Shown here: positions 3,206 through 49,409 of the stretch, piece by piece
Layout of the letters: the number at the start of each line of letters is the position of its first letter
How positions within the stretch are numbered: the stretch's first letter is position 1
From: Spinacia oleracea
Taxonomy: Eukaryota > Streptophyta > Magnoliopsida > Caryophyllales > Amaranthaceae
Assembly: GCF_020520425.1 (NCBI RefSeq)
Contig: NC_079488.1
Coordinates: 23,128,247 to 23,192,246 of the forward strand
Direction: 5' to 3'
Length of the DNA stretch: 64,000 nt
Position numbers and translations under genes: made by a program
The notes under the pieces: model-generated
What the model was told of the DNA's origin: nothing
Seen by the model: only the letters and a program-made list of their open reading frames with translations
The model's database searches: none

Positions 3206-3559
3206 AAATCTTTTAAAAAGTTAGCGAGAATGCGATTTATTATACAGAATTTTTTACAACCACTACGGTGTTTGCTACTCGAAGAGAAATGCTTAATTGG
3301 GGGATTGAAGTGGGTAAAATGCATAATATTGTCATTATCATTTCTCAGTCTGAAGGTGGGGAAGGTCATGGTTTTGGAACGGCGAAAGCTACCCTTACTT
3401 GTGAGAGAGTCGGAAAATATAGGCTTAGCTAGTCGAAAGTTGCAATAGATTTGGAAAAATTTACTGGAACAACAAAGATGTCGTGTCCCTTTAGACTTCA
3501 AGCAAAAGAGCATGTTGGTGGCGGATGGAGTGTAGTTGTTCGTCATGGTATGCACAATC
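3206..3559 (+). pseudogene. MULE transposase remnant, part 1 (FAR1-like zinc-finger region)
   Basis: The plus-strand frame running through GAA at 3247 reads as the N-terminal region of plant Mutator-like transposases: 'FATREEMLNWGIEVGK', then 'ATLTCERVGKYRLS', a stop (TAG near 3430), and 'KMSCPFRLQ' with 'GGGWSVVVRHGMHN'. The C-P-F and W...H-N-H-D motifs are those of the FAR1/WRKY-GCM1-type zinc-binding domain that precedes MULE transposase domains. The frame is cut between HN and HD by an LTR element with TSD CAATC (3555-3559); the missing HD is at 15233 onward. The stop and the upstream frame breaks mean it is dead even without the insertions. The start codon is not identified. Confidence 0.75.
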
Positions 3560-3906
3560 TGAAGGAAATAATGCCCTTGGTCCAAGTATGCATTCTATGT
3601 TAAGTCTAAAAAATGCGGTTCAGTATTAATTAACAAGTTAATAATTAAGTGAGATCAAGTGAGCTGAATGCCTAGCTAGAGGCCGCTTCAGTTCAAGTGG
3701 AATTAATGATATTAATCCACAACTTACTCTTGACTGAACCCGTAGGGTCACACAAATAGTACGTAAACGGATCAAGTATTTAATGGCATTAAATACTCTA
3801 TCTATGGATATTCGAAATCGACGGATCTTGGTTTTAGTGGGAGCTGAGATCGTCACAAGCAAGAAATGAATACTCCGGAAATGATGATATTGCCGGAAAC
3901 GGAAAT

Positions 3907-5287
3907 TGTTAGGTTATGATACATATGACAATTCATAAATCATGCGGAAAAACCATTTAGCCAGGAATACATATTATTTACACATAATCATATAGCATAG
4001 TTTAGATGCATACTCTTTGTTGCGTGCCTTCCCTAGCTGCGCCCGAACCGAACAAGAACAAGTCTTTAGGACTCCAAGTGTCGTCCCTCCGTAGATAGTC
4101 CACAGCACGTCCGGATCCGCCTTAAGATTGACCAACTAGAATCACCCTTAAGGTACTAAAGATTTTCGGCACTTATAGTCAAGGAATGTGTCTGAATTTT
4201 CTCTCAAAAACTCACTTTGAATACTTGAATAATCTATAAAATATGTGACCCTAGGCACTTATTTATAGAGTTATGGAAAGGGTTTTGGAATCCTATTAGG
4301 ATACTAATTTATTTAATTATAACCCTACTAGGACTCTAATTAAATAATCATTATCTAATAGTTTTAGGATTTAATCACACTTTGAATCCCGATTGCTTCA
4401 GGATTCCCGCACAAGCATTGCACGAGCACCGTACACCCGCGCAAGCCTTGCGGCCCACGCTAGGCGCACAGCGCTCGGCCCACTGCTGTGCTCCGCGCGC
4501 GCGCGCCCAAGGCCTTGGCTGGGCCTGGCCTTGCGCTGGGCCTGGTCGAGGCTTGGCGTGCGCTGGTGTGCGTTGGCTCGCTGGGCGACGGCCTGGCTTC
4601 GTGCTGGGCCTTCGTCTAGCGGGCCTCGTCCGATGCTAATTCGTACGATACGCTTCCGATTAAATTCCCGATTCCGGAATTCATTTCCGATACGAACAAT
4701 ATTTAATATTTCCGATTCCGGAATCAATTTCCGTTTCGAACAAATATTTAATATTTCCGTTTCCGGAATTATTTTCCGATTCCGATAATATTTCCGATTC
4801 TGACAATATTTCCGTTTCCGGCAATATTTCCGATTCTGGCAATATTTCCATTTCCGATAATATTTTCCGATACGTACCATACTTCCGTTTCCGGCAACAT
4901 CTACGACTTGGATAATATTTATATTTCCGATACGATCCATATTTCCGTTTCCGGCAATATCATCGTTTCCGGAGTATTCATTTCTTGCCTGTGACGATCT
5001 CAGCTCCCACTGAAACCAAGATCCGTCGATTCCGAATATCCATAGATGGAGTATTTAATGCCATTAAATACTTGATCCGTTTACGTACTATTTGTGTGAC
5101 CCTACGGGTTCAGTCAAGAGTAAGCTGTGGATTAATATCATTAATTCCACTTGAACTGAAGCGGCCTCTAGCTAGGCATTCAGCTCACTTGATCTCACTG
5201 AATTATTAACTTGTTAATTAATACTGAACCGCATTTATTAGACTTAACATAGAATGCATACTTGGACCAAGGGCATTATTTCCTTCA
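3907..5287 (-). mobile_element. Solo LTR of the same family, opposite orientation
   Basis: The segment starts TGTTAGGTTATGATAC and ends TATTTCCTTCA. This is the reverse complement of a whole LTR of the surrounding element family. It is flanked by a 5-bp duplication GAAAT (3902-3906 and 5288-5292). The intact 3' LTR shows the empty site as 'acggaaatatgg'. Its GC-rich block (about 4385-4640) differs clearly from that of the two outer LTRs, so it comes from another family member. Confidence 0.88.
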
Positions 5288-6002
5288 GAAATATGGATCG
5301 TATCGGAAATATAAATATTATTCAAGTCGTAGATGTTGCCGGAAACAGAAACATGGTACGTATCGGAAAATATTATCGGAAATGGAAATATTGCCGGAAT
5401 CGGAAATATTGCCGGAAACGGAAATATTGTCAGAATCGGAAATATTATCGGAATCGGAAAATAATTCCGGAAACGGAAATATTAAATATTTGTTCGAAAC
5501 GGAAATTAATTCCGGAATCGGAAATATTAAATATTGTTCGTATCGGAAATGAATTCCGGAACCGGGAATTTAATCGGAAGCGTATCGTACGAATAAGCAT
5601 CGGACGAGGCCTGCCGGACGAGGGCCCAGTACGAAGCCAGGCCATCGCCCAGCAAGCCAAGCGCGCCACATGAACAGCCAAGGCCACGCCAGGCCCAGCA
5701 GGCCATGGCAGCGCGCGCAGCGCGCGCAGCAATGGGCTGCGAGCTGTGCTGCTGCTTGCGTGGGCTTTGCGGCTCGCGTGGGCCGAGCGGCCGTGTGGGC
5801 TGTGCGCGGGCATGGCCTGCATGCTCGTGGGTCATGCTCGTGTAGAGTTTGTGTTCACATACGAAACCTAAATTGTATAGGATTTGTTTGATGATTAAAT
5901 TCCTAATCCTAAAAGGATAAAATTAATTAGTTAGAGTCCTACTAGGATTCTAGTTTAACTAATTAGTATCCTAATAGGATTCCAGTTCCTTTTCCATACC
6001 TC

Positions 6003-6010
6003 TATAAATA
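6003..6010 (+). promoter_or_regulatory. LTR TATA box
   Basis: TATAAATA lies in 'cctctataaataagggcc' about 355 bp before the LTR end. The same box is at 14872-14879 in the 3' LTR. Transcription would start about 30 bp downstream; this is inferred from position only. Confidence 0.55.
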
Positions 6011-6364
6011 AGGGCCTAGGGTCATTATTTGCAGACACGATTGAAGTATTCAAAGGGTAATTTTTTGAAATATAAATCAGCCATACACTTGCAATAAGAG
6101 CCGAAATTCCTAGTAACCTTAAGGGCGATTCTAGTTGGTCTAACTTGAGGCGGATCCGGACATACTGTGGACTATCTACGGAGGGACGACATTTGGAGTC
6201 CTAAAGACTTGTTCTTGTTCGGTTCGGGCGCAGCTAGGGAAGGCACGCTACAACATGTATGCATCAATTCTATGCTAAATGATTATGTGTAAATAATATG
6301 ATTTCCTGGCTTTATGGTTTTTCCGCATGATTTATGAACTGTCATATGTATCATAACCTATCAG

Positions 6365-13790: not shown

Positions 13791-13805
13791 GGACAAGTGG
13801 GAGAC
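13791..13805 (+). other. Polypurine tract
   Basis: GGACAAGTGGGAGAC lies immediately before the 3' LTR (TGAAGG), the position of the plus-strand primer of reverse transcription. Confidence 0.6.
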
Positions 13806-15232
13806 TGAAGGAAATAATGCCCTTGGTCCAAGCATGCATTCTATGTTAAGTCTAAAAAATGCGGTTCAGTATTAATTAACAAGTTAATAATTCAGTGAGA
13901 TCAAGTGAGCTGAATGCCTAGCTAGAGGCCGCTTCAGTTCAAGTGGAATTAATGATATTAATCCACAGCTTACTCTTGACTGAACCCGTAGGGTCACACA
14001 AATAGTACGTAAACGGATCAAGTATTTAATTGCATTAAATACTCTATCTATGGATATTCGGAATTGACGGATCTTGGTTTCAGTGGGAGCTGAGATCGTC
14101 ACAAGCAAGAAATGAATACTCCGGAAACGATGATATTGCCGGAAACGGAAATATGGATCGTATCGGAAATATAAATATTATCCAAGTCGTAGATGTTGCC
14201 GGAAACGGAAACATGGTACGTATCGGAAAATATTATCGGAAATGAAAATATTGCCGGAATCGGAAATATTGCCGGAAACGGAAATATTGCCGGAAACGGA
14301 AATATTGTCAGAATCGGAAATATTATCGGAATCGGAAAATAATTCCGGAAACGGAAATATTAAATATTTGTTCAAAACGGAAATTAATTCCGGAATCGGA
14401 AATATTAAATATTGTTCGTATCGGAAATGAATTCCGGAAACGGGAATTTAATCGGAAGCGTATCGTACGAAGAAGCATCGGACGAGGCCTGCCGGACGAG
14501 GGCCCAGCACGAAGCCAGGCCATCGCCCAGCAAGCCAAGCGCGCCACATGAACAGCCAAGGCCACGCCAGGCCCAGCAGGCCATGGCAGCGCGCGCAACA
14601 ATGGGCTGCGAGCTGTGCTGCTGCTTGCGTGGGCTTTGCGGCTCGCGTGGGCCGAGCGGCCGTGTGGGCTGTGCGCGGGCATGGCCTGCATGCTCGTGGG
14701 TCATGCTCGTGTAGAATTTGTGTTCACATACGAAACCTAAATTGTATAGGATTTGTTTGATGATTAAATTCCTAATCCTAAAAGGATAAAATTAATTAGT
14801 TAGAGTCCTACTAGGATTCTAGTTTAACTAATTAGTATCCTAATAGGATTCCAGTTCCTTTTCCATACCTCTATAAATAAGGGCCTAGGGTCATTATTTG
14901 CAGACACGATTGAAGTATTCAAAGGGTAATTTTTTGAAATATAAATCAGCCATACACTTGCAATAAGAGCCGAAATTCCTAGTAACCTTAAGGGCGATTC
15001 TAGTTGGTCTAACTTGAGGCGGATCCGGACATACTGTGGACTATCTACGGAGGGACGACATTTGGGGTCCTAAAGACTTGTTCTTGTTCGGTTCGGGCGC
15101 AGCTAGGGAAGGCACGCTACAACATGTATGCATCAATTCTATGCTAAATGATTATGTGTAAATAATATGATTTCCTGGCTTTATGGTTTTTCCGCATGAT
15201 TTATGAACTGTCATATGTATCATAACCTATCA
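13806..15232 (+). repeat. 3' LTR (1427 bp)
   Basis: It is uninterrupted and runs from TGAAGGAAATAATGCC to CATAACCTATCA. Repeats of the form 'cggaaatattgccgga' fill 14140-14430, a GC-rich block follows (14480-14700), then the TATA box at 14872-14879. It differs from the 5' LTR by only scattered changes (for example ggagtcc/ggggtcc, and a short loss in the gcgcgcagc run). Confidence 0.9.
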
Positions 15233-19433: not shown

Positions 19434-20473
19434 TGGATTGAGAAATATGCAATGTGCCGGTCCTGGGTCATCCATTCCTGATCCACGACCCATCAACCTC
19501 GCCCAACCCACTATGTTTGCCATAATCAATAACTATATACTAAAAAACACACCAGGAAAGATACGTATTATCTCCTAGTGTGTTCTTGCTTTTTTAAAAA
19601 AATATATATATTTTTGTTAAAAAACTTTTGAAACGTAATATTTTTTAGGATTATTTTTTTCATTTCCTCCTCATCTTCTATTTTATGGCAAAAGTCTTAA
19701 ATAATACATATTCCGTAATATTTATTAAAAAAGCCTAAAACTCTTGACCTGTTTAATGACTTTAAAAATCACTAGCTATAATAGTAAATAATATGTACGT
19801 ACGGAGTATTATTATACTTCCATACTGCTACAACATTTTACAAAACTTATCTAAAATAATCCAAGATGATATATGTCACATTGTCACTTCTTTGGGATAT
19901 CTAATAAATCATAAGCATGGGTTTTATTTTTAAAAAAAATCATCATACCCCACTATTTTCCCCCAAAAAAACTATAGTAAATTTTTAAACAGAATAGTAG
20001 TTTCTTTGAATTCAATATAGATGTAAATAGATATTTTCTATTTGTTCATATGACTAATATATTAGAAGAAATCTACACATTTCTAGAATAAATTTTATTG
20101 GAATAAATTTTATGGGGCCGGTGGCCTATCCTTAAAATTTATCCAAAATTTTGTGAATATTTTTGTTTATATAAAATGGTTCAATTTGTCATTTGAAAAA
20201 TTTACTAGACTTGAAATTTTATTTAGACCAAGTATATATTAATCTGAACATTATAAGTAGTATCATTTAAAACTTAAAATTTGGGTTTAACATAAATGTT
20301 CTATTACCAGACTTTAGACCATAGTAACAATATATTTTACTCCATATGAAACACTAATTATAATAAGTATCAGATGTCTAGGGTTAATATTTTTCTCTTC
20401 CGCTGTGCCCTAGCCGCTCTCTACCTTCTCCTTCTTTCTTCTTCTTCTTCCATCTTCCCCGTCGGTATTCACC
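19434..20473. other. AT-rich non-coding stretch
   Basis: No gene seen. Near 20370 the text 'aagtatcagatg' is a weak match to a Met-type primer site and would fit the start of the copia element that follows, but no copy of its LTR precedes it. Confidence 0.45.
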
Positions 20474-23400
20474 ATGTCCGGCGTCAAAACTTCCTTTCAT
20501 CCAGCCTTTGTCGTCTCCAACATCAAGAACCATGTTTCCGTCACTCTTGAAATGGAGAACGTTCAATATGGAACGTGGGCTGAGACGTTCAAGGTCCATG
20601 CTCGATCTCACCGTGTCCTTCATCACATTATTGCACCTGAGGAATCTGCCGAGAAGGAACCCGTGGACAAGGAGTTATGGACAGTCCTCGATGCTACCGT
20701 TCTTGGTTGGAATTTTGCCACAATATCCAACGACCTGTTAACCACCATCATTGAGGAAGACATGACTGCCATGGAGGCTTGGAATCGGTTGGAGAGCATT
20801 TTTCGTGACCATGCCAACTCGCGTGCGTCACTCTTGAGCAGGAACTCACCCATACTCGTATGGAGGATTTCCCCAATGCCTCTTCTTATTGTCAGTGCCT
20901 AAAGATGCTTTCGGACCAACTGAAAAACGTGGGTGCTCCGGTCTCGAATAATCGACTAGTTTTGCAGATGGTTGCGGGGTTGAAGGAAGCCTACAAATAT
21001 GTCGGCACAAATATTCGTCAAAGCAAGGTACTTCCATCCTTTTATGAAGCCCGTTCGAGTCTCTGTCTTGAAGAAAAAGGGTTAGCCGCCATGTTCGCCA
21101 CCGGTGGTGGTGGCGGCTCCGCCATGGTCGCTGTTTCTAGAGATACCGATGTTGATTCGGAGGTTTCTCATCCTCACCATAATTCCCACCATCGTGGGAG
21201 AAATAACAACCACCACAACAGGGGCCGAAATTCCGGTGGAGGGGGAAAGAAATCTGGCGGTGGTGGCGGCAACCGATCTGGTCGCGGCGGCCGCAACTCC
21301 GGGGGTGGCAACCAGAACCACGGAGGTCAGACGTAAGCAGCAGGGTCGTGGCCTTCCATGGCTCCTTGGGGATGGTTTAACCCTTAGGCTCTCCCCCCTT
21401 GTCCATTCCCAACTCAGGGGTGGGCCCGTCCAGCTCCTCGGCCCAATATGCAGCAAGCTGGTGTGCTTGGGCCTGCTCCAGTTCAGCCCACTTGGACTCC
21501 CCAGCAAGCTTACATGGCTGGAATGCCATCTTTTATGCCTGCCATGCAGGCCTACGCTCCTACGGACATCGAGGCCGCTATGCACACTATGTCTATGAAC
21601 CCTCCGGATGCAAATTGGTACATGGACACCGATGCTACATCTCATATGACATCTTCCCAAGGTAATCTCACGTCTTATTTTAATTTGAGCAATAAAAACG
21701 GTATTATTGTTGGTAATGGTCATATGATTCCAGTTCGTGGTTGTGGTCACACCCAGTTATCTCCCCCGAACCCCCCATTGTCTTTGAATAATGTTTTACA
21801 TGCTCCCAATATTATTAAAAATCTTGTGTCTGTCCGTAAATTTACTTCGGATAATTCTGTGACAGTCAAATTTGATCCTTTTGGATTTTCTGTGAAGGAT
21901 TTTCAGACGGGGAGATACCTAATGAGATGTGAGAGCCGGGGGAATCTTTATCCTATCACCTCCAACACCACCATCAACACCAATCAACCATCTTCTTTTT
22001 TGGCGTCCTCTCTTTGGCATGATCGTCTAGGTCACCCGGGCGATTCAGTTTTGAATTTTCTTAGGATTAATAAGCACATTGAATGTAATAAACTTCGTAG
22101 TTCTAAAGTTTGTCTTTCTTGTGTACTTGGGAAGCATATTAGGTTACCGTTTGTTGCTAGTACGTCTAGTACTTTGTTGCCATTTGATATTATTCATTGT
22201 GATCTTTGGACATCTCCGGGTTTGAGTTCTTCGGGACACCGATATTATCTGTTGCTTTTGGATGATTTTTCAAAATTTTTGTGGACATTTCGATTGCCAA
22301 AAAATCTCAAGTATACTCCATATTTTTGGCTTTTAGGGCTAATGTTCAAACCCAATTTGAACGTCGTATAAAAAGTATCCAATGTGACAATAGGAGAGAG
22401 TTTGATAATGGACCATTTTGGAAGTTTTGTGAGGAAAATGGCATGTCTTTTCGTCTCTCTTGCCCCCATACCTCTTCCCAAAATGGTAAGGTCGAGAGAA
22501 AAATTCGGTCTATCAATAATATCGTGCGAACTCTACTTGCACATGCTTCTTTACCATCCGCATTTTGGCACCATGCATTACAAATGGCTACCTATCTCAT
22601 AAATATCCTTCCAAGTAAATTATTGAAAAATCAATCTCCTCTTCATGTTCTCTACAAGAAGGACCCCTCTTATTCGCATATTCGGGTGTTTGGGTGTTTG
22701 TGTTATCCTCTTTTTCCTTCTACCACCATTAATAAATTACAAGCTCGTTCCACACCTTGTGTTTTTTTGGGCTATCCCCCTAACCATCGTGAATATAAGT
22801 GTTTTGATGTGTCGAACAACAAGATTATTATTTGCCGTCATGTGGTATTTGATGAAACTAAATTTCCGTTTTCTTCATTACGTACCCCTGCTCCCCATGC
22901 ATATGATTTTCTTGATAATGGTTTAAGTCCTTACACTTTGGACTTTGTTCACAATCAGTTGCCCAATGGCCAACCTGAACAGCCCACACAAACTCCCACA
23001 CCTTCTCCCACGGTCCATTTGCTACCCCACACTCCTCCTTTGGACCGACAAGCCCAACCTTCTTTGGTCCCCTTGTCCCCCACTCATGCAGCAGCCCCAA
23101 TTACTCCTACCTCCCTCCCTACGTCTTTTCCCATGCAGGCCACTCCTGCTCCAAGCCCCAGCGCTGGACAGGAGGGCTCAGGCCCAAACACATCTCCCAC
23201 ACTTGCTCCTGTGCTTCCTGCTTCCGTGTCACGGATGACCACACGTAGTCAACGTGGTATCTTTAAGCCCAAATGTCAGTTTAACTTAAATACCACGGTT
23301 ACGAAATCTCCTCTCCCTCGTAACCCAGTGACTGCCCTTCGTGACCCGAACTGGAAAATGGCTATGGATGATGAATATGATGCTCTTATTAAAAATAAGA

Positions 23401-24857
23401 CGTGGGATCTGGTACCCCGTCCTCATGATGTTAATGTTATTCGTTCTATGTGGATTTTTTCTCATAAAGAAAAGGCTAATGGTGATTTTGAGAGGCATAA
23501 AGCCCGTCTTGTAGGGGATGGAAAAACTCAACAGGTTGGCATCGATTGTGGTGAGACTTTCAGCCCGGTAGTCAAACCGGCAACTATTCGGACGGTTCTT
23601 AGTCTATCTTTGTCCAAGAATTGGCCCATTCATCAGCTTGATGTCAAGAATGCTTTTTTGCATGGTGAGCTTAAGGAGACAGTCTATATGCACCAGCCGG
23701 TTGGGTTTCGTGATCCAACCCATCCTGATTATGTGTGTCTGTTACGTAAGTCTTTGTATGGACTTAAACAGGCACCCCGAGCTTGGTACAGGAGATTTGC
23801 AGATTATGTTATCTCACTGGGTTTTTCTAATAGTAAGTCAGACAACTCTTTATTCATTTATCGTCAGGGAAATGACATGGCTTACATTCTACTGTATGTT
23901 GATGATATCATTCTCACTGCCTCTACACATGTGCTTCGCCGTTCTGTAATGGAACATCTTGCGTCTGAATTTGCTATGAAGGATCTGAGTCCTTTGAACT
24001 ACTTTCTTGGCATTGCTGTGACGAGATATAAGGGTGGGTTATTTTTGTCTCAACGTAAGTATGCTGAGGAAATCATAGAATGTGCTGGCATGTCCTCTTG
24101 CAAGTCATCTTCCACTCCGGTTGACACTAAACCCAAGGTTAGTGCTACTTCTGGGACTCTGTATGAGGATCTGACTCATTATCGTAGTCTTGCGGGTGCT
24201 CTGCAGTACCTCACTTTCACCCGGCCAGATTAATATCTTATGCTGTTCAACAGGTTTGTTTGCATATGCACGACCCTCGAGATACTCATATGCATGCCCT
24301 CAAGCGAATCATCAGATACATTCAGAGTAATTACTCATGGCTTGCACCTATACCCGTCCTCCATCACAGACCTTGTATCCTATACTGATGCGGATTGGGG
24401 TGGGTGCCCTGACACCCGGCGTTCTACTTCGGGTTATTGTGTGTTTTTGGGAGACAACTTGATTTCCTGGTCGTCAAAGAGACAACCTACCTTGTCTCGG
24501 TCTAGTGCTGAAGCGGAATACAGGGGGTTGCTAATGCTGTCTCTGAATCCTGTTGGCTTCGAAATCTTCTTCTTGAACTACATTGTCCCGTGAGTAAGGC
24601 TACATTAGTTTACTGCGATAATGTGAGTGTTATCTATCTTTCTGGTAACCCTGTCCAACATCAACGCATTAAACATATTGAGATGGACATTCTTTTTGTT
24701 CGAGAAAAGGTTGCCCGAGGCTAGGTTCGTGTTTTACATGTCCCTTCCCGTTATCAGATAGCTGACATTTTTACTAAGGGTCTTCCCTTGGTACTTTTTG
24801 AGGATTTTTGGGACAGTCTCAGCGTTCGTATACCTCCCGTTTCGACTGCGGGGGTGT
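20474..24857 (+). pseudogene. Copia gag-pol pseudogene
   Basis: Domains in order: retrotran gag (20474-21070); a Gly/Asn/Arg-rich segment (21090-21335) where a CCHC knuckle would be expected; protease with WYMDTDATSHMT (21616-21651; the usual DTGA is DTDA); GAG-pre-integrase HDRLGHPG with C-x2-C (22018-22140); integrase core (22190-22600); reverse transcriptase with YVDD at 23895-23906; RNase H with DADWGG and SSAEAEYR (24380-24530). Breaks: a 1-nt loss near 20836, TAA at 21334 and a TGG-to-TAG-like stop near 21380, a 1-nt loss near 22284, shifts near 24228, 24330 and 24522, and a TAG near 24722. Confidence 0.88.
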
Positions 24858-25003
24858 AATAGATTATGTAAATAATCGGTTATATATCGTAGATATTATT
24901 CTGTATATCGTAGATATTATTTAGTGTATATTTCCCTTCCTATTGTACACTAGTATATAAACCCGTTGAGGTTAATGAAATCGTTACGGAAAATATTCTT
25001 TCA
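24855..25003 (+). repeat. 3' LTR of the copia element (about 149 bp)
   Basis: It begins TGTAATAGATTATG directly after the purine run and ends near TTCTTTCA. It contains 'atatcgtagatattatt' twice and a TATA-like 'agtatataaaccc'. The end is set by the TG...CA rule because there is no second LTR to compare. Confidence 0.6.
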
Positions 25004-25055
25004 ATTGACAAATAATTTTCTACTAAAAGAAAAACTCAACATAACTTGTGGTAAT

Positions 25056-26710
25056 TGTAACACCCCGTATTTTTTACTATTTTTGAAATATATTAATATC
25101 TTTTAAAATTACCGTTCTTAATATTTTCCTATTTTAATTAGTCAAAATAAACTTTATTTATACTTCATATTTTATACTTACTCGTAGTTATTGTTACTCT
25201 TGTTATACATTAATATTATTATTTTGGACCAATGGACTTATAACATATATATATACTCCTTATTTTAAATGGGATTAGAATTATAATGCTCTTTCCGACC
25301 GTATAGCTTAATTTTCTTTAGCCGTTTTTGCTTTTCTTCCTCTCCCACTGCGTGAGATAATACCAATAGTCTCTTGATGTATCCTATCTCTCTCCCTTTT
25401 GCAGTAACTGATTAGATTAGCATCCTTTTAGGCAATTAGGTTCTTAATATATAATATTAATATTGTTAATGTATTGATGTTTCAGTTTTAGGAGTTATAA
25501 CCTTTTAGTTTTCCAACTCCTCACATATATAATATATTCTTAAACTCTTCCCATTTAGCCACATGTTACTCATCATCTCCATTTTCCTTCTGCCATTTTC
25601 CTTCGTACGGAATGATAAGGTACGAATTTCTTTGTGTATATGATGTTGTCCGAGAAGAAATAAGATTACAAACTGATTATGCACTAGCTAGTAGTAGTAG
25701 GTGCTTTGAATGTGGGTATTAAGTTTTAGAAGTAAAAGAACTTGAAGTATTTGAATCAAGGGTTGATGATCCCTATATGATTCTGCAGTTGTTGTTTTAG
25801 GGTTGATGGTCCCTAAATCTATTTTTGATGATTTGAAAAAAAAAAGTATATTTCCAATGTTTTATGTTTTGTGAGCGTAAGATAATTATTGGGCTGCGGG
25901 ATTCAATGATTGGAACATGCCAACTACTCCGGCTGCGGGATCGAGTAGTACTTTTCTAGGTTAATTTTTGTCGTCCGGAACTACTTGGGTTGCGGGATTC
26001 AAGTAGGAAAACTGGGAGTTTGGCCATTCTTAGACACAGACGGCTGCGGGATCGTCTGAAGGTTCGCCCTGACAAACCTTTGATGGTGGGTTGCGGGATT
26101 CGCCAGCGTTCATATTTTTATATGCTTGCCTCACAAACAATTTTTCAAAAGTTAATCTTTATTATTTTAAAGTGATATTGTTTTTGAGAAGTCCTTGTGG
26201 GTAAAATTAAGAGTTTTACTTTAATCTTTTTGATTAATATTTATAAGAGTTATTAATGATTAAATTGTGTGTTTCAATTTATGATCTTATGTGTTCCCTA
26301 AGTTGTTTTTGTAACCTATATTCTATTATTCTTATTATTTCTATTTAATTGGTTATGCTTGAGCTGGGAGAGCTGTTAGTTACTCCCCACTGATTGTGGA
26401 ATTTTGTTGATTATTTTACAGGTTGTTTTTCCTACCTTGTTTGGGCTTGGACTTGGGCTTCGAGTGAGAATAAAACTATTGAAGATTATTTTATTTTTAA
26501 CCCTATTTTATTATATTTGAAGTTATGTTTTAACTCATTTGAGGCTTTATCTTAATTACTCTTTATTTTATTCTTATTGGTTTTACAATTTAGTGTTTAA
26601 ACCCCTCTTTATTTTTAGGGACAATCCCAGAAGACGGTGTTTCCGCCACCGTCAATTTAAATAGCTCTTTCCTTTCTTATTTTCTATGTTAAAATTTCTG
26701 GGTTGTTACA
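25056..26710. mobile_element. Probable solo LTR (TGTAACACCCC type)
   Basis: It begins TGTAACACCCCG and ends GGGTTGTTACA, so termini are TG...CA with a short inverted repeat. TAAT flanks both sides (25052-25055 and 26711-26714). The length of 1655 bp, lack of coding capacity and this terminus fit plant Ty3/gypsy LTRs. A TATA-like 'acatatataatatattc' lies near 25524. The segment 25759-26105 is a cluster of hairpins (separate entry). A TIR element is the alternative reading. Confidence 0.6.
25759..26105 (+). other. Hairpin array with conserved loops and varying stems
   Basis: Five hairpins share the loop GG(C/T)TGCGGGAT(T/C) but have different stems. They are 25885-25910 (ATTATTG/CAATGAT, one G-U), 25923-25949 (ACTACTC/GAGTAGT), 25981-26006 (CTACTTG/CAAGTAG), 26037-26058 (CAGACG/CGTCTG) and 26084-26105 (TGGTG/CGCCA, one G-U). 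Two more hairpins upstream share the loop TTGATG(A/G)T: 25759-25774 (AGGG/CCCT) and 25796-25817 (TTTAGGG/CCCTAAA). Different stem sequences that all stay complementary around a fixed loop are the mark of selected nucleic-acid structure. Whether it acts as RNA or DNA is unknown. Confidence 0.7.
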
Positions 26711-27013
26711 TAATTTTGACCAATATTTTATACAACATACTCAAGAGTTTATATGGTCCATAACTCACACTCAAAATTTATAACAAGTTTTCTTACTTAA
26801 ACTAAAAAATGTATGACAAATTTTAATAAAATAGTAATAACTCCCTCCGTTCCATAGTGATGTTCTAATTTTTACTTTTCAGTTTTTCATTGCATATTTT
26901 GTCTCATTTATATCTCTAATTATACATTAACAAAAATATAAAATTTTGATATTATTAAAGTACTAATTGAAACGAATCAAATAAAACTCCACATGAATAT
27001 GTTTTTTTTCTTA

Positions 27014-28395
27014 GGAAAAATTAATTCTAATATTTTAACCTTTGGTCGGTCTTCCAATAACAATCCCACTAATACGATATCTCTCGCTGATCAAACATTC
27101 AAACCTTTGACACCTATTTTCGTTAAATAGACCTTATGATCGGTTACTTGAAAGAAAGTTAACAACTTTCAAATTGACTCTATTTAGCTGGCGTGGCTTT
27201 TTTGTTTACGTTTTTTTTTAAAATTCAAGTGTTATTTGGACTGCAACAGACCATAAATGTACTAATAATCCAAAGTAAAACAAATTTAGAAAGATTCAGA
27301 AATTTCTTCCACGTTGATACAAGAAGAGAACCAATATGATTACATCCAAAAAGGCTGTCATTCTAACTGAAAATTCACCATCACTGGGCTATTTTGAGTT
27401 TTTGATATTTTTAGTAAGAAAAGAGGTGGACCAAATCAAACTGTGAAATTATTGAATAAAGAACAAGAAAAAGAGAATTTCATGAAAAAAGCAAAGGGCA
27501 TACTCAAAGAGCAAAAGGGAAATAGAAGCATTCAATGTATATGCTCTCTTGTCTAGTAATCACATAATAACCAGGTTTAGAAGGACATTTTAATCCTTAA
27601 AACAAACATGTAATCCACCATAAAGCAAGTGTAAATGGGAATCAATAAATCCAGGAACCTCAATTTTTCCCTCTAAGTTCAATTTTTGCGTTGTGCTCCC
27701 TTCTAATTCGGCCATATTAATATCCATGGAATTAGCGAAAGGGAGAGAAAGGTCACTGATGTATATGAATGCATTTGTCACCAATAAATCTTCTACTTCT
27801 GCTACTTTCAATTTCGACCACTCTGCAAAAAATTGAAAAATTAGAATATTCATCTTTCTCTCTCTTAATCAACGACTTTGTCTTCTCATCCACTTTCGCA
27901 GCAATATCATTGATTTCCGATGCTTTTGTTCTTGAATCGCCCACCTTCACTACCTCACGGAACACCTTCAACCCCCATTCACTGTAAAAATTCCCATGAA
28001 CCGGCCTTTGAGTCGCAAAATTAGGGTTTCCAACAAATTTTGGGCGATTAAATTCCTGCAATTTCGAACTTCGTTTAACATCTTCGGTACCACCATCTTT
28101 GCTAATGAGTTTTTCATTCAACTCCTCTTTCTCTCTCTTCATCTTCTCCTTTTTATTTGTTAACGACGTCTTTGAGGAGCAAACACAAAGAAGGAAATGA
28201 GAGAGAGGAAGGAAACATGTTGAATTCGCAATAGTCATTGCCACATAGGATAAATAACTGATTTTGCAGGTCGCAATTTAATGATTTCTGTTTAAAGAAA
28301 ATAGGTATCAAAGGTTGGGCCAACAAGAGATATCGTATTAGTGAGGCTATTATTGGAAGACCGACCAAAGGTTGGATTATTAGAGTTGAATTTTC
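27014..28395 (-). mobile_element. Pack-MULE with long inverted repeats
   Basis: Ends are GGAAAAATTAATTCTAATA at the left and the inverted GGAAAATTCAACTCTAATA at the right. They continue inward for over 100 bp ('aacctttggtcggtcttccaataa', 'cactaatacgatatctct', 'cctttgacacctattttc'). TTTTTCTTA flanks it perfectly at 27005-27013 and 28396-28404, the 9-bp duplication diagnostic of Mutator-like elements. No transposase is present; it carries host-derived coding sequence on the minus strand. Confidence 0.9.
27600..28244 (-). pseudogene. Captured chimeric gene with amidohydrolase (LAF3-like) exon
   Basis: The downstream exon begins after a TTTTTTGCAG acceptor (near 27826). It reads 'VEDLLVTNAFIYISDLSLPF', then 'LNLEGKIEVPGFIDSHLHLL' with 'YGGLH' before a GTTTGT donor-like site. 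This is the N-terminal part of the plant YtcJ-type amidohydrolase family (LAF3 group), with the metal-binding H-x-H in DSHLHL. The upstream part (to 28244) encodes about 110 residues rich in K and E, of unrecognised origin. Most of the enzyme domain is absent, so no activity is expected. Confidence 0.7.
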
Positions 28396-31284: not shown

Positions 31285-32365
31285 GATTCTATAGTTTAGA
31301 CATGTTACTTTTTTTTTTTTTTTTTTTTTATAATTTTAGAGGAGTTACTATTTTTAGTTTAGGTATGTTACTTATATAGTTTATACATGTTACTTTTTTT
31401 ATACGGAGTAGTTTTAGGGGAGATACCTAAGGCTCTGTTCTCTTCACCTTTATTTTCACTTATTTCAGGTCTGATAAGATAAGATAAGATAAAATAAGAT
31501 AAAATAAGGGCCAATAAGATAAGATAAGATAAGTTCAGGGCCAATAAGATAAGATAAGATAAAATAAGATAAGTTTAGGGTCAATAAGATAAGATAAGAT
31601 AAGTTCAGGGAAAATAAGATAAGATAAGATAAGGTGAGGTAAATATTACATAAGGTAATACTATAAGTTTCAATAAGATAAGATAAGATAAGATAAGGGT
31701 CAATAAGATAAGATAAGATAAGATAAGATAAGGGTCAATAAGTTCCGATAAGATAAGATAAGATAAGATAAGGGTCAATAAGATAAGATAAGATAAAATA
31801 AGATAAGTTCAGGGCTAATAAGATAAGAGAACACTACCTTAGTTTAGGTATGTGACTTCTATAGTTTAGACATGTTACTTTTTTTTTATATAATTTTAGA
31901 GGAAGTACTTTTTTTAGTTTAGGTATGTTACTTCTATAGTTTATACATGTTACTTTTTTTTATACAGAGTAGTTTTAGGGGAGATACCTTCTTAGTTTAG
32001 GTATGTTACTTGTATAGTTTAGACATGTTACTTTTTTTTTTTAATAATTTTAGAGGAGGTATTTTTTTTAGTTTAGGTATGTTACTTCTATAATTTAGAC
32101 ATGTTACTTTTTTTTATATAATTTTAGATGAGATACTTTTTTAGTTTAGGTATGTTACTTCTATAGTTTAGACATGTTACTTTTTTTTTATACGGAATAG
32201 TTTTAGGGGAGGTACATTTTTAGTTTAGGTATGTTACTTCTATAGTTTAGACATGTTACTTTTTTTTTAAAAAGAAATTTTTAGAGGAGGTACTTTTTTA
32301 GTTTAGGTATGTTACTTCTATAGTTTAGATCTGTTACTTTTTTTTTATAGTTTTAGGGGAGGTAC
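31285..32365. repeat. Minisatellite, about 76-bp unit, nine or so copies
   Basis: Units contain 'tagtttaggtatgttacttc', 'tatagtttagacatgttac', a T-run, and 'gttttaggggaggtac', repeated with small changes at 31362, 31846, 31922, 31999, 32074, 32149, 32227 and 32305. One unit is interrupted by the MITE at 31429-31840. Flanks at about 31220 and 32385 share inverted words around 'accatca', so the array may be the interior of a larger inverted-repeat element. Confidence 0.75.
31429..31840. mobile_element. MITE filled with GATAA repeats
   Basis: Ends AAGGCTCTGTTCTCTT and (inverted) AAGGTAGTGTTCTCTT form a 16-bp terminal repeat with three mismatches. The interior is almost entirely 'ataagataagataag' blocks separated by 'ttcaggg(c/t)caat'. 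It is inserted in one unit of the surrounding minisatellite, which supplies the empty site. Confidence 0.65.
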
Positions 32366-32854
32366 GCTATTGGTTTCGCGCTCGTCACACCATCAAGTAG
32401 ATGATGTAACTGGTCTAAGAGGAGACGCGCTAAAAATCAAGACGCTGAAACGAAAAGAGAACGGACTAACGGAGAAAGTACATGCGGTAACATAAAAGAA
32501 CAGCATCTAGCTTGGTGTTCAGAAATAAGGACCTAATACCTAACTAAAAGTGGGGTAAGAATATAAATTAAAGTTTTACGTTTGAATATCATAATATAAC
32601 AAGGTGTTTCAATTGGTTAGGATTCTTAGGAATCTTGGCCATTGTTGTCTAATTGTATTTCCTCCACTCTTTAGAAACAATTGTAGGTTCTCTTTTTCAT
32701 ATGGTCGTATCGTTTTTGTTTGGTCGAAAGTAAAAAGCAAAATTATAGATGATATTTGTCATTCCTTATTTTATCTACCAATTTTTTATTTTTATTTTTA
32801 ATTTTTTTTTTTTTTTTTTTATGTTAATTCAATTTTTCCCTTTGTTGTTTGTTA

Positions 32855-35045: not shown

Positions 35046-37141
35046 TCAGGGAGCAAAACTGATGGTACCTGCCACAAAAATCAAGATTATACCAACCATC
35101 TTTTGCAAACTCATGGGTGGCGATGAAGAAGAAGGAGGGCTCCCATTCTTCGGAGTCTTCGAAATGTCGATCATAATCTCGAATCTACAACCATTCTGTG
35201 AAGGATCAGTTGTAGTAATGGTTGCCATATTGTTAAAATTACATGCTCCGGCGCTCTGGTTCTTCGTCTGATAATACATGTTAAACGCATAAGACGCGTT
35301 ACTACGAGCATCCAAGTTACCACAGGAAGATCCATAACCAAGTGAAGTGCAGTCAGCAAATTGGCAGGCATAGCCAATACTGTCTGCAACACTTGAAGTG
35401 TTAGAAGGACTTGCTTGAGGTGACATAACACACCACTTTTTAGCCAAATACTTGACCCTTTTCGCAGGGACGAGGCTTTTACCTCGCCCCATATTCAACT
35501 GATACTTTACACCGCCATCATAGTAGAACATCCCCCAATGCCTCTCGAAGTTTCCTGGGGCGACACTCTTTGAGTCTTCGTCAATGAGAGAAAATATGTA
35601 CACATCTGGTGGTGTACGCCGTTTAGGAGTGCCCTTACCTTGTAGGATCCTGTTTATGAGTCCTTGGTTGAACTTCCTTGCATTCTTCAAGTTAGCATTA
35701 GCAGCACCATCAGTAGGCCACCCTACTTCCCCTATAATAACGGGTAAATTAGGGAAACCGTTCTTTTCTAGGGCTGATATAAGGGTATCATAGTTGGCTT
35801 CAAAGACATTATTGTAAGTAAGGGTACCATCAACAATAGGGTTGGATGCACCCTCAAAGAAGGCAAAGTCTATTGGGAAATTAGGGTCACTATTGAGGCT
35901 TAGAAACGGGTATATGTTAACCATTAAAGGGGCAGCATTGTTGTTGAGGAACTTGACAATTGATATCATAAGGTCGTGTATATCAGCTCGAAAATTACCC
36001 CCTGATGGAAGAGTTGTGTCTGATTGGTAGACATCGGCGTTTAATGGGACAGTGGCCTTCACTTTGTGTGCTATACCGGCTTTGATAAGAGCAGCTTGAA
36101 TGTTCTGCAGTGCTGGGAATGTAGTGTGTGTGAATCTGTCTCCGTAGTCTTTTAGAAACGGCTCATTTCCAACAGCAACATATCTGACATTTCTCAAATG
36201 TTTATGAATTAGATCATCTGTATTTTGCAGATCTATATATGGAAAATCCAAGATAATTTACTGTGAGAACAATAATATATGCATAGACCTGTCAAAAACC
36301 GACCCGAAAATATTGGTCTTGAACAAGATTTTGTGACCCATAATCCGATTTTATCCGAACCCCAACAACCCGAAATGTAATGGGTCAAAAGTCCGGTCGG
36401 ACCCGTTGTTGACCCGACCGATTGAAAATATTTGTGTTTATAGTAATAACGAAATTATGAAGAATTTTAAGCACAATAAACATGTTATTATTGTTGGGTG
36501 TAATATGATTTTTATTTGAATTATACGTCATTTTATGGTTGAATTTGAATAAATATAAACTTGTTTATTAAAATTTGTTAATTTGTGCGCATATTTTTTA
36601 CATTTATTACACAAATTAATAAAAAATATAATACATGTTTTTATAATCTCTCAGCCCGTTGGATCGACCCGAACCCAAAAGTTCTGGGTCTTGAACAAAC
36701 ATTTGTTAACCTGAACCCAAAAGTGACTGACCCGAACCAACCCGAACCCGACCAACCCGTTTGACAAGTCTATTAATATGCATGCATGTATTGTTATTGT
36801 TACCTTATGTCGACCCCGTTTCTGGAGACAAAACCAGAGACATTCTGATTCACCCAGTTGACAGCAGCCTGAACACTACCAGCAAGTGTTGCTAACAAAT
36901 CATTAGGAATTCCAACCATAACTTCAATACCAGAATTCCCAAGGGCAGTAAGCGCGCCATGATCAGCTTCAAAGAGCTTAACTTTGTTGAACCCGTTGTC
37001 CTTGAGCAGCTTCACTACTATTTTCGGGGGTAAAGGGTGTGTCGAAATCGTACCCCAGTTCACGCCGAGGCCTAAACCACCTGCCACTAAACAAGCACCA
37101 ATTATGAAGAACAACAAACACTTGTGTGATTCAGGTCCCAT
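35046..37141 (-). CDS. Glucan endo-1,3-beta-glucosidase (GH17) with X8 module, GPI-anchored
   Basis: Two exons, 36804-37141 and 35046-36183, joined through a GTAAC...CAG intron in phase 2, give 491 residues. The open frame start at 36251 lies in the intron and is not the real start. Residues 1-26 form a signal peptide ([14 protein letters not shown]). The GH17 domain spans about 27-355, with the acid/base Glu in VAVGNEPF (E120) and the nucleophile in IGEVGWPT (E265). A callose-binding X8/CBM43 domain (about 363-448) follows, with WCV, ACQFADC, SSCGN, GACNF and GCRF cysteines. A Ser/Pro linker and hydrophobic tail (474-491) suggest a GPI anchor. Such proteins act on callose at the cell wall and plasmodesmata. 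No key residue is missing; the gene looks functional. Confidence 0.93.
36284..36771. mobile_element. Inverted-repeat insertion in the glucanase intron
   Basis: It starts AGACCTGTCAAAAACCGACCCG and ends with TTTGACAAGTCT, whose reverse complement is AGACTTGTCAAA. Both ends are dense in 'gacccgaac' words. It occupies most of the single intron. No clean target duplication was seen, so the exact limits are approximate. Confidence 0.5.
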
Positions 37142-43658: not shown

Positions 43659-44084
43659 TGTTTGGGCTCCCAATTGATTCTCAATTGGGCCACTAAGTCC
43701 AAAGCCCAATGGCTCTAAACAAACAGCATCAAACCTACCAATGGGTAGTCAGCCATCCATCAAGGCCCAAGGCCCAAAAGCAATAAATGACCTATGGGAA
43801 TTTATTATGCAAACACTATAAATAGGCCGCCAAGGCTCACACCTCAAGGTACGTCCAATTTATTGCCTTAAGACTACTCTTCTAGAGAACTTCTCTCTAG
43901 AATCCGAGCATCGTTCTTACTTAGGCATCGGAGGGGCTTTCCTCGGAAACACCCCCGAGGCTAGTAACTTTGCTCTTGTGCAGGTGAATTCGGACTCCAC
44001 TCATTCAAGCAAGCAAGATCTTCAACACATACGAAAGGGCCTTCATTCGAAGCCCATTGTTTCCATCTTTACAACACCGGAACA
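43659..44084 (+). repeat. 5' LTR of the Tat element
   Basis: It contains a TATA box in 'cactataaataggcc' (about 43816) and direct words 'ccaattgattctcaattgg' (imperfect palindrome) at its start. The LTR also includes the ATG that opens the long frame at 43978, which is unlikely to be a real start because it precedes the primer site. Confidence 0.93.
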
Positions 44085-44087
44085 ATT

Positions 44088-44105
44088 TGGCGCCGTCTGT
44101 GGGGA
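44088..44105 (+). other. Primer-binding site
   Basis: TGGCGCCGTCTGTGGGGA begins three bases after the LTR end. It begins TGG, complementary to a tRNA CCA end, and the motif is the one commonly seen after LTRs of plant Tat-type elements. Confidence 0.8.
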
Positions 44106-44110
44106 ACAAC

Positions 44111-47100
44111 ATGAGCAACCCCAGAAGAGGGTCTACGAAGCAACAGGACACAAGAAAAACGACATCCTAGTGGTGTTCGGGGGGCAGAAGTCTGGCCAGG
44201 CCAGCAAGAAACACCTAAGAGCCCTCTCCCATCGGGTCAACTTCAGCGCGGTGGGAGACAACCAGCCACACCCCCCGAACATGACCTTCACTGCTGATGA
44301 TTGCTTCGGAGTCCAGTACAAACATGACGATCCTCTAGTCATTTCCATGGACCTCAATAACCACAACGTACATCGAGTGTTAGTCGACGGAGGAAGTGCC
44401 GTCAATATCATCTTCAGAAACTGCTTCGAGCAGCTGATCCTCGAAGAATCAGAGGAAGCACTGACGAAAGTCAGTTATCCTCTGATCGGATTTAACGGAT
44501 CCGCAGCTATCCCTCGAGGAAAGATCACCCTGCCAGTCACGGTGGGTGAAGGCCAAGCAGCAAAAACCCTTCGGGACGAATTTTTGGTGATGGATTGCGA
44601 TTCCGTATACAACGTAATCATGGGAAGAACCATGATCCACAAGATGCAAGCAGTCCCCTCCACATACCATCAGCTGATGATATACGTCTCGGACGCAGGG
44701 TTCGCCGAGCGAATTAGAGGCGATCAAGAGGTCGCTAGAAGAACCTGCCACACTGCTGTCCGAAAGCCCAAACTAGGGGACGGCCCCGAGGAAGAAAAAG
44801 GAGCTACAGGAGAGGAAAGCGAGGCAAAAAGGAGAAGAGCAAGCACGAGCAGCCTATCTCCCGCAGAAGTTGATGCCCGCCCCGAAACCCTATATCCTGA
44901 ACCAGATCAAGAAATGGAGGATATCTTCCTCGAAGATAATTCAGACAGGAGCGTCCGAATAGGCAAGGGCCTAAGCTCGGGGCTCCGAATCGATTTGATC
45001 CGACTACTCAGGGATCACAAAGACATCTTTGCATGGTCAGCAGCAGATATGCCAGGGATAAATCCGAAGCTGATTTGTCACAAGCTGGACGTCAACGCTG
45101 AAGCTCGGCCAGTCAAGCAAAAAAAGAGGAACTACTCCTCGGAGAAAAACAAAGCCATCGCCGAGGAGGTGAAAAAGTTGCAGGAGGCCGGATTCATCGA
45201 ACCATGCATGTATCCGAAATGGCTGGCCAACGTGGTGATGGTCAAAAAAGCGAACGGCTCCTGGCGAATGTGCGTGGATTTCACAGATCTGAACCGAGCC
45301 TGCCCAAAAGACTGCTATCCCCTGCCAAGGATAGATCAATTGGTTGACTCCACCAGCGGCCATGCGCTGCTCAGCTTCATGGATGCCTTTTCAGGCTACC
45401 ACCAAGTGTTCATGCACCCCGATGACAGGGCAAAGACAGCATTCATCACAAGCGCAGGAGTGTTCAACTACAAAATGATGCCTTTTGGCTTGAAAAATGC
45501 CGGAGCCACCTACTAGAGGCTAGTTGATCACGTCTTCGCCGACCAGAAAGGGAGGAATGTGGAGGTCTATGTGGATGACTCCATCGTAAAAAGCATCAAG
45601 GAGGAAGACCATGTCAAAGACTTGGCAGAGACCTTCGGGAATCTGAGGAAATACAGCATGAAGCTGAACCCAAAAAAATGCGTCTTCGGGGTGAAGTCAG
45701 GGAAGTTCCTCGGATTCATGGTGAGCGAAAGAGGAATTGACGCGAACCCAGACAAAGTCCAAGCGGCATTGGATTTACCCGAGCCGAAGACCAAGAGAGA
45801 TGTGCAGAGGCTAACCGGCAGGTTAGCCGCACTAACAAGGTTCATATCAAAAGCCTCGGACAAGGGAGCCCCCTTCTTCAAAGCACTGAAACCAAAGAAC
45901 CTCCCCGGGGGAGAAGCGGAACCAGTCAAGAGAAAGGGGGTCCCGAGGAAGGTGGATCCCGAACTGATATGGGAACAGGAGCAAAAAGAAGCTTTTCAGC
46001 AACTCAGAGCCCACCTAGCTCAACTGCCGACACTGGCCAGACCAAAGGAGGGAGAAACCCTGTACCTATATGTCGCAGTCAGCCCTGGAACCGTCAGCGC
46101 AGTGCTTCTTCGGGAAGAAGAGAAAAAGCAACAGCCAATCTACTTCACCAGCCGAACACTCACAGGGGCCGAAACTCGGTACCCGCTCATCGAGAAAGTC
46201 GCATATGCAGTAGTGGTAGCTGCGCGAAAACTGAGGCCATACTTCGACTCCCACCAGATCACAGTACTAACTGACCAACCGCTCGAGAAAGTACTCGACA
46301 AAATAGAGAGGTCAGGAAGATTGGCTGCCTGGGCCTTCGAACTATCAGAGTTCGGCATCAAATATCAGCCGAGGACAGCAATCAAAGCACAAGCGTTGGC
46401 AGACTTCTTGGCCGAGTGCTCATACCAGGAAATGCTGGATGATACGAAAAGCACTTGGGAGGTCTTCACTGACGGATCTTCCACAATAAACGGCTCAGGA
46501 GCAGGAGTTGTACTAATCCCCCCGACGGGGAAAAGCATAGAGTATGCACTGAAGTTCGGCTTCAAAGCAACTAACAACGAGGCCGAATATGAGGCCGCAA
46601 TCGCAGGGATAGAACTTTGCTTATCCCTGGAGGCCGAGCATGTTTGCCTCAAAACTGATTCCCAGCTTGTAGCCAACCAGATCCGAGGGGAGTATGAGGC
46701 CAAATGGCCCAGCATGACGGCTTACTTAGCAAAAATTAAATCCTTAACGTCAAAGTTAAGATCCTTTGAAGTCATTCTCATCCCCCGAGGACAAAACACG
46801 CAAGCAGACGCACTGTCAAAACTCGCAAGCTCAACACTCATCGACCTAAACAGGTCGGTCCACGTGGAAGTTCACCAAGAGAGAAGCATTGACTTGCTAC
46901 CCACCACAGTATGCAGTTTGCGTACCGAACCCAGCTGGATGGACGCAATAGTTGCATACAAAGAAAGGGGAGAACTTCCCGAAGATAAGCTGTAGGCGAG
47001 AAAACTGAAAAGATTCAACAAGTGGTTCATCATCAGCGCCGAAGGAGAGCTCATGAGGAAATCATTCTCTGCTCCGCTGCTAAAATGTGTGGGTCCAACA

Positions 47101-48192
47101 GACGCTGACTACATCCTAAGAGAAATCCACCTCGGGATATGCGGAAACCACATCGGAGGCAGGACATTGGCACATAAAGCCCTTCGGGCCGGATACTGGT
47201 GGCCCACTATGGTTTCCGAGGCAAAGCAGATGGCAAGGAAATGCGAGAAATGCCAAAAGTTCGCACCAGCCATCCATCAACCAGCTCAAACCCTACAATC
47301 AACACTGTATCCCTTACCATTCGCACAGTGGGGGTTAGACATCATTGGTCCCTTCCCCTCAGCTACGAACCAGAAGAAGTGGTTGATTGTAGGAGTCGAC
47401 TATTTTAGCAAATGGATCGAAGTTGAAGCTGTCTCCTCCATCACCGAACCTCAGGTCCGCAAGTTCATATGGCAGAACATCATCACAAGGTTCGGCATAC
47501 CAAGACTGATGGTCTTCGACCACGGGAAACAGTTCAACAACACCCCGTTGCAAAAATGGTGCAAACAGTTCGGCATACACCTAGCTTACTCGGCAGTTTG
47601 CCACCCACAAAGCAACGGGCAAGCCGAAGCTGCTAACAAACTCATCCTCAATGCACTCAAGAAAAGAGTCGAGGATGACAAAAACAAATGGTTAGAAGAG
47701 CTACCCGGAACGCTATGGTCCCTTCGGACCACTGAGAAAGAAGCTACCGGGCAAACACCGTTCCACCTTGTATATGGATCCGAAGCTGTCATCCCTGTGG
47801 AAATCGGAACAGAAAGCCTGAGGATCCAGGCATACAACAGGTATGATGGACTCCAAGGAGAAAGCAACAACCAACTTCTGTCCGAAGCTCTCGATCTACT
47901 GGACGAAGCTCGGAACGATGCAAGGACACTCAACGCAGCCTATTTACAGAGGGTCAACAAGCATTACAACCGAAGAGTCAACGCCAGACCCCTAAAAGTC
48001 GGTGATCTAGTACTCAGAAACGCCGCCTCGGTTCAGAAAGGACGGATCCATGGCAAACTCTCAGCCACTTGGGAAGGACCATACATCATCCATTCCGAAA
48101 AAAGGCCAGGAACGTTTATGCTGAAACAGTTAGATGGAACAATTTTGAAGAACCATTGGAATACCGATGTTCTCAAGAAATATTTTGTATGA
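44111..48192 (+). pseudogene. gag-less gypsy pol with two amber codons
   Basis: A gag start (MSNPRRGSTK) at 44111 is cut within about 20 codons. The pol frame then runs from about 44170 to the TGA at 48190-48192. Domains: protease with VLVDGGSAVN (about 44375); reverse transcriptase with YVDD at 45568-45579; first RNase H (about 46050-46420); a second RNase H starting EVFTDGSS (46462); integrase with the H-H-C-C finger ending CEKCQKF and the core starting WGLDIIGP (47329). Two TAG stops (45514 and 46993) interrupt an otherwise unbroken frame. The first replaces the Gln of GATYQR. Near the second integrase Asp the text is FDHGKQF where DNG is usual. Confidence 0.9.
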
Positions 48193-48576
48193 TCTCTGTC
48201 TGTAAACCAAGTAAGTTGTTTAATGAGAAGAGGAAAGCCATCGGCACCATGTGTTTCATTAAACTTATCTCTATATTTATTGTCCCTTTATATATACATG
48301 CAGCCTCGGATCTGATCAATCCGAGACTAAAAACAGGTTGACTTTGCCCATTCCTTGATAAAATGCAAGAAATGACCAAATCATACACTTCAGGGAATCG
48401 TCCAGAATCCTCGGATTCGCGATACCCAAATAAAACTTGTTCGCAACAAACAGTCGCTCGAATCAAGTTATAAAACTTCGGCTCAGATCCACGGATCGCC
48501 GAAGTCATAACTAAGAGGCAGACTAGCGATCTCTTGCCCAGGTTTCCGAACCACAAGAGATCGGAAGAACAATCCA

Positions 48577-49080: not shown

Positions 49081-49409
49081 CTACGGATTCAAAGACCTAA
49101 AATTGCGAAAGTACAAAATTGAAAAGAAGCAGCCAAGTAACAAACATTCATTTTTCATTCAATATTTGGGGGAAGTACAAATACATCAAACAAACTCGGT
49201 ACATACCCGAGGATCCTCAAAAATTGAAAACAAAATGAAACAGTTAAAATCGGCAGCCATCAACAGACAATACCGGCCTACCGAAGTACTAAGAAAGCAA
49301 AAAGAAACAGTACAACGCAGCGCCGAGGCAAAAGGGGGAAAGGCAAGCACACATTCGGAAGTCCTCAACTGGAACCGACCGACTCTGAAGAAGACGACTG
49401 CCCGAATCC

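Follow-up and report, generated by a model that had tools for sequence, protein, structure and literature searches.

A stand-alone LTR in the window (the whole 64-kb stretch of DNA analysed here) carries an array of five hairpins that share one loop motif, GGYTGCGGGATY, each on a complementary stem of its own. The stems pair and change with compensation, loops are alike within each copy but not between subfamilies, and the LTRs of one subfamily (class B, below) lie in a chromovirus context. These points are shown by the sequences. The reading that we propose goes beyond them: the array would most likely be a multivalent RNA site in a chromovirus LTR, read by one family-specific partner, probably the element's own Gag in packaging. 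We give this reading about an even chance of being right.

Five hairpins in a stand-alone LTR

The LTR spans 25056-26710 on the + strand (1655 bp), starts with TGTAACACCC, ends with GGGTTGTTACA and has TAAT on both flanks; its relatives have LTR ends as well. No second copy, second LTR or internal region was found within the 64-kb window. All three + frames were interrupted by stops over 25541-26720, and Rfam gave no match at gathering score in the whole window and none up to E = 1 in the LTR. The sequence has a TATA-like box upstream of the array, at 25526-25531 (+), with further TATA-like sites in the LTR at 25246-25250 and 25448 and several also on the minus strand. The array (25880-26110) is a GC-rich patch, with a GC content of 0.50 and a CpG observed/expected ratio of 1.03, against 0.27-0.33 and 0.34-0.82, respectively, in the remaining LTR parts. 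Directly upstream of the LTR lies a copia-type element (20414-24233, +) with RVT_2 and gag_pre-integrase in broken frames.

A preliminary description of this DNA had claimed five hairpins with one loop motif, each with its own complementary stem, and this was borne out by exact motif sites, by arm pairing and by RNAalifold. The five exact sites are all on the + strand, as are the hairpins. H1 (25883-25912; motif 25892-25903) has a 9-bp stem, TAATTATTG/CAATGATTG; H2 (25923-25949; motif 25931-25942) has a 7-bp stem, ACTACTC/GAGTAGT, with one bulged C; and H3 (25981-26006; motif 25988-25999) has a 7-bp stem, CTACTTG/CAAGTAG. The stems of H4 (26037-26058; motif 26042-26053) and H5 (26084-26105; motif 26089-26100) are of 5 bp, CAGAC/GTCTG and TGGTG/CGCCA. 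All these pairs lie outside the motif, and if the C of H2 is not bulged out, H2 has only one. Since the GG and TY of the loop as first stated can themselves pair (G.U, G-C), the unpaired core is YTGCGGGA. With one mismatch allowed, a single extra motif site appeared in the 64 kb, at 20970, inside copia-like sequence; shuffled sequences held 0.35 sites on average and 2 at most, and six were reached in none of 100. The complement of the array loop was represented within 24001-28000 by only one 6-mer, at 27897.

Matching each 5' arm with its own 3' arm was the best of the 120 arm permutations, whether the bulge was allowed or not, and under none of four settings did any of 200,000 random placements attain the summed arm pairing. 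Across the five hairpins 84.4% of cells were paired, against 61.4% in shuffles. Double changes were found in 13 cells, a number reached in none of 500 shuffles, and at six pairs, against 3.4 in shuffles (10 of 500 had as many). RNAalifold, unprompted, returned the same nine-pair helix, with double changes at six of its pairs, and a covariance model of the five hairpins found exactly those five in the window at E < 1e-4, the next hit having an E of 0.78.

Folded alone, the hairpins had z-scores of -1.96 (H1), -0.82 (H2, the weakest), -4.81 (H3), -1.97 (H4) and -1.90 (H5). Taken as a whole, the 251-nt array stretch was not more stable than shuffled sequence (z -0.38; 68 of the 200 shuffles did as well). 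Within longer stretches, alternative pairings of H1, H2 and H5 were often favoured by the energy model, and H4 lost to such pairings in long contexts with unlimited pair span; H3 was the only hairpin formed in all longer contexts (0.68-0.99). The stems use G.U pairs in the + strand sense, and on the minus strand the formation of H1 and H5 fell to 0.01 and 0.00.

The stems had also been called unrelated, which turned out to be too strong: H2 ACTACTCC and H3 ACTACTTG have ACTACT in common, and H1 AATTATTG resembles both. This kinship indicates that the array arose at least partly by duplication. These are old copies whose stems have since changed with compensation.

Pairing and loops across genomic copies

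The motif occurred 83 times in the 894-Mb genome, against 42 times for a reversed-pattern control, and it clustered in the window and in six other genomic places. A DNA search with the window LTR gave at least 44 matches (40 of the 93 candidates scored). Among these 40 candidates, five copies besides the window cover the LTR from about 25741-25750 up to its end, and no other match was found for 25056-25706; a weak 104-nt match to this 5' part was seen in L064. A search with a class B array gave 29 matches. The array alignment comprised sixteen rows in two classes named by loop length, class A (the window and L047-L051) and class B (10 rows); L046, with two class A hairpins, stood outside it. 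Copies L070 and L073 differ hardly at all from L069 and L071 and were counted once with them, and so were L053, L057 and L077, the same as L050, L049 and L048.

A covariance model built from the window hairpins found 24 hairpins in six further loci. In these, 86.4% of cells were paired, against 60.9% in shuffles, in an alignment fitted to the model, and double-change cells numbered 54, against 21.8 in shuffles, with the same leaning of the alignment towards the model. Two of five measures on this six-locus alignment did not exceed shuffles (332/500 and 99/500).

Pairing was then counted in orthologous hairpins, with 10 to 15 copies each and with pair 5 of H5 excluded. Variants were scored as pair types against the commonest pair and not as tree events, so that the numbers are small and unpolarised. 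On a point raised in the preliminary description, whether stem changes break pairing as often as they keep it, variants present in at least two copies kept pairing in 9 of 10 cases, and those private to a single copy kept it in 12 of 30 and broke it in 18 (Fisher p 0.009). With pair 5 of H5 included (the outermost one, which is a mismatch in 10 of 15 copies), the figures were 11/12 for shared and 13/31 for private variants (p 0.005). A transition from the commonest pair would preserve pairing in 35 of 66 cases. At pair 2 of H3, for instance, the variants T-A, T.G and C-G all pair. Thirteen hairpin-by-copy cases were removed by hand from the pair table and from the loop count: H1 and H2 of L047 (fused), H1 of L058 (1-nt insertion) and of L081 (replaced), H3 (1-nt deletion) and H5 (interrupted) of L083, and, as replaced, H3 of L054, L055, L056, L058 and L082 and H4 of L055 and L056. 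The window H2 was omitted from the pair counts because of a 1-nt deletion.

The shared variants were most likely present already in a source element, and the single-copy variants would mostly be changes that followed insertion. Shared variants that pair and private ones that break pairing are what selection on live elements, together with decay of dead copies, predicts. The covariation claimed for a single copy was present in the window copy; its confinement to one copy did not hold, as it was also found between orthologous hairpins.

Loops behaved differently from stems. Within one copy, arms were 35% and loops 85% identical (113 hairpin pairs). The 8-nt core of class A was found in 27 of 28 hairpins, the remaining one being H4 of L047, whose extracted core has 7 nt and reaches 8 only with a 1-nt gap in the 3' arm. 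Class B has a 7-nt core, with one G fewer, in 39 of 39 hairpins. Since the classes are defined by this length, what matters is that no copy mixes the two. By these counts the loop is conserved within each array, the second point on which the preliminary description had made its reading depend. In classes A and B the hairpins have orthologous stems and spacers, so the difference is not explained by two arrays having been amplified separately. The idea that pairing is selected and that the loop is read by something gains support from the shared variants that keep pairing and from loops kept within arrays.

A third loop was found in four copies (class D: L106, L107, L108 and L111), in all of which H2 and H5 both bear ACCGTG in their loops, in some cases with one base changed. 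In full, the loops read GACCGTGATT (H2) and GAACCGTGGACA (H5), likewise with one base changed in some copies; ACCGTG is intact in two of the four H2 loops and in three of the four H5 loops. Class D stems have 6 to 8 pairs in H2, some interrupted, and at most 3 in H5. In H1, the stem CAACCAT/ATGGTTG replaces CAATCAT/ATGATTG and the loop is different again. In a tree built without the loop columns, class D formed one clade (100/100), joined with the class B rows L055, L056 and L103 (100/99); within this group L056 grouped with class D at 82/81. Monophyly of class B was rejected (p-AU 1.4e-05). That of class A was not rejected (p-AU 0.456), though the best A/B tree needs two changes. Three loop classes imply a minimum of two changes, and the tree with class D needs three.

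A less closely related family (class C; 12 loci examined) has the LTR 3' part in common with the window family. Viewed via patterns that include flanking letters, its loops are ACGGATT in three short hairpins and ACGTATT in two. The stems have five to six pairs in two cases and only about three in the others, so that this array is weakly supported; one hairpin of L064 shows a compensatory change from C-G to T-A.

Another loop type was found in the hairpins GGTTAG/CTAACC and GGATAG/CTATCC, which have six pairs each and a nearly identical 18-nt loop. Both are present in L055, L056, L106, L108 and L111; they have five and six pairs in L107, and the second is decayed in L103. L054, L058 and L082 have instead one hybrid hairpin, in which the first 5' arm faces the second 3' arm and one pair is mismatched; a deletion between equal loops would be expected to leave just this. 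In L047, the 5' side of H1 is fused to the 3' side of H2.

The LTR has other hairpins besides the array. A sixth one (26633-26653, +; z -3.97), 57 nt before the LTR end, pairs GACGGTG with CACCGTC round the loop TTTCCGC. This stem occurs in the window and most rows, and GACGTTA/TAACGTC is found in L048, L069-L071, L075, L105 and L108. Two pairs thus differ on both sides, and the loop is TTTCCGC or a one-base variant; in the 33 loci searched by the TTTCCGC loop pattern other loops were invisible, and a further search left the loop free. A hairpin TTTAGGG/CCCTAAA with the loop TTGATGGT (25796-25817, +) is preserved in many alignment copies, and a shorter similar one, AGGG/CCCT, is seen in the sequence at 25759-25774 (+).

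Assignment to the Ty3/gypsy chromoviruses

In L069, L070 and L071 the LTR end is followed by GT and then by TGGTATCAGAGCC, which we take to be the primer binding site (PBS) for initiator tRNA-Met. In L070 a gag lies downstream (Ty3_capsid 1.4e-13, Retrotrans_gag 3.8e-13), giving the order LTR, PBS, gag. On the same contig, between the class B LTRs L070 and L069, L084 has RVT_1, RNase H, Integrase_H2C2, SH3_Tf2-1 and Chromo domains, encoded in two frames with a stop between; Chromo scored 25.9 bits (cut-off 25.1) and rve fell below its own cut-off. The association of gag, reverse transcriptase, RNase H, integrase parts and a chromodomain with class B LTRs indicated that the family is a Ty3/gypsy chromovirus. 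No adjoining PBS was seen in the class A copies found. The window copy, a lone LTR, would be a Ty3/gypsy chromovirus by its kinship with class B.

Membership of the window family in Del/Tekay is likely, going by its LTR letters. As given in parts of PMC4029996, the commonest U3 att of Del chromoviruses is TGTAACACCC and their LTRs measure 1143-4831 bp; the first ten bases of the window LTR are this att, and its length falls within the range. From the same parts of that source, the class B LTR end GGGTGTTACA (L069-L071) fits the type A U5 att, with GGG at -8 to -10, and a chromodomain integrase is common to Del/Tekay and the class B element. Two points differ from that account (PMC4029996, in part): the class B LTRs L069-L071 start with TGTAATATTT, unlike the U3 att, and the window end GGGTTGTTACA has an extra T. 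Those parts of PMC4029996 make no mention of hairpins, palindromes or TGCGGG.

Possible readers of the loops

Each LTR position occurs at least once in genomic RNA. As the array follows TATA-like boxes and precedes the LTR end, the PBS and gag, it would, if transcribed, most likely be part of the 5' leader. There the stems would present the loops outward, and any stem sequence would work if paired, so that stems would drift with compensation. The loops might act as repeated copies of one site, bound together by one trans-acting partner. Because subfamilies in one host genome differ in loop and the loops agree within each copy, this partner would most likely be encoded by the element, and the best candidate is Gag (nucleocapsid), which would select its own RNA for packaging. 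An extension of this reading, which we hold tentatively and with somewhat less than even confidence, is an address code: each chromovirus family would have its own loop, read by its own Gag, which would sort the RNAs of co-resident families. When the reader changed, the loops of an array would change together, and the stems would merely have to stay paired.

A possibility was that the hairpins bind a host protein, or form a structured leader that acts in translation, splicing or export, the loops differing by drift or through different host proteins. Nothing here names the reader, and in class B elements gag comes after the array. However, co-resident subfamilies differ in loop while each array is uniform, and one host reader should have kept them alike, so we consider this explanation unlikely, if worth keeping in mind. 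Loop-loop kissing between the array and the sixth hairpin, in the same RNA or in dimerisation, was noticed post hoc and by eye, with the TTTCCGC loop sought by pattern. GCGGA:TCCGC is possible in class B and GCGGGA:TTTCCGC, with one G.U, in class A, and the sixth hairpin does retain its loop even though two pairs of its stem differ on both sides. Yet A and B have different array loops but the same 3' loop; class D combines ACCGTG in the array with a 3' loop that still reads TTTCCGC (L106) or TGTCCGC (L108); and in class C only CGGA:TCCG is kept and the ACGTATT loops do not fit. Kissing is in our view distinctly unlikely.

Palindromes or protein-binding repeats of an LTR promoter, as in Sireviruses, or silencing marks would act at the DNA level, and the GC-rich array (0.50), with its CpG ratio of 1.03, within an AT-rich LTR would suit them. 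Against this, it is the loop that is conserved and not the palindromic arms, and the G.U pairs fit the + strand whereas minus-strand RNA would not pair (H1 0.01, H5 0.00); we rate a DNA-level role as very unlikely. Ordinary duplication with chance inverted repeats, and no selection, would account for the related arms of H2 and H3, and the hybrid hairpins in L047, L054, L058 and L082 do show that loops recombine. The observed pairing was never reached by random placements, however, and shared variants keep pairing in 9 of 10 cases, which leaves this explanation almost no credit.

Retroelement leaders with structured signals for packaging or dimerisation are already known. Retroviral packaging hairpins are not known to form an array in which unrelated stems bear five equal loops. 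In RNA phages, dispersed packaging hairpins carry one loop motif on variable stems and are read by one capsid protein; the replicon is a different one, and the array described here is clustered in about 220 nt of an LTR. Like the array as we read it, the BARE signals for dimerisation and packaging are cis-acting RNA signals of a plant LTR retrotransposon and are thought to be Gag-linked, though BARE is a copia element and the signals described in the relevant parts of PMC3735527 do not include an array of like loops. The MMTV purine loop, as presented in part of PMC8096270, is an exposed purine-rich loop near the 5' end that is read by Gag, which is what we propose for the array. Sirevirus LTRs, too, have several inverted repeats; according to parts of PMC2829016, these are copia elements in which conservation lies in the palindromic arms, with their CGG-CCG signature, and the repeats are found upstream of the TATA box. 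In the array, by contrast with those parts of PMC2829016, arms vary and the loop is conserved (35% and 85% identity within copies, with no conserved CGG-CCG arms), the position is downstream of TATA-like boxes, and the element is gypsy. A search of the open-licence literature, and hence weak evidence, found no published description of such a hairpin array; one loop on freely varying stems, differing in concert between families, is within that literature a variant that we did not find described. Uniform loops in each array, with other loops in other families, suggest a single reader and make the specificity of Gag for its loop directly testable. In LTRs, where alignment is otherwise difficult, stem covariation also provides a means of detecting cis-acting RNA.

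Some further features were recorded. A screen of viral contigs gave 25 with three TGCGGGATY motifs, all of them, by eye, repeats in unrelated sequence. The window also holds an LTR element at 43659-53714 (+), with 431-bp LTRs (43659-44089 and 53284-53714) that are 99.3% identical and with gypsy-type reverse transcriptase, RNase H and integrase domains in adjoining frames. An open frame at 35046-36257 (-) has GH17 and X8 domains and is of a plant beta-1,3-glucanase type. This gene, together with the sorts of retroelements present, marks the DNA as that of a plant. Blocks of internal repeats lie at 31464-32370 and 48580-49081, their shifted copies being 80-90% alike, and the segments 3558-6363 and 13805-15232 are duplicated and inverted, up to 98% alike.
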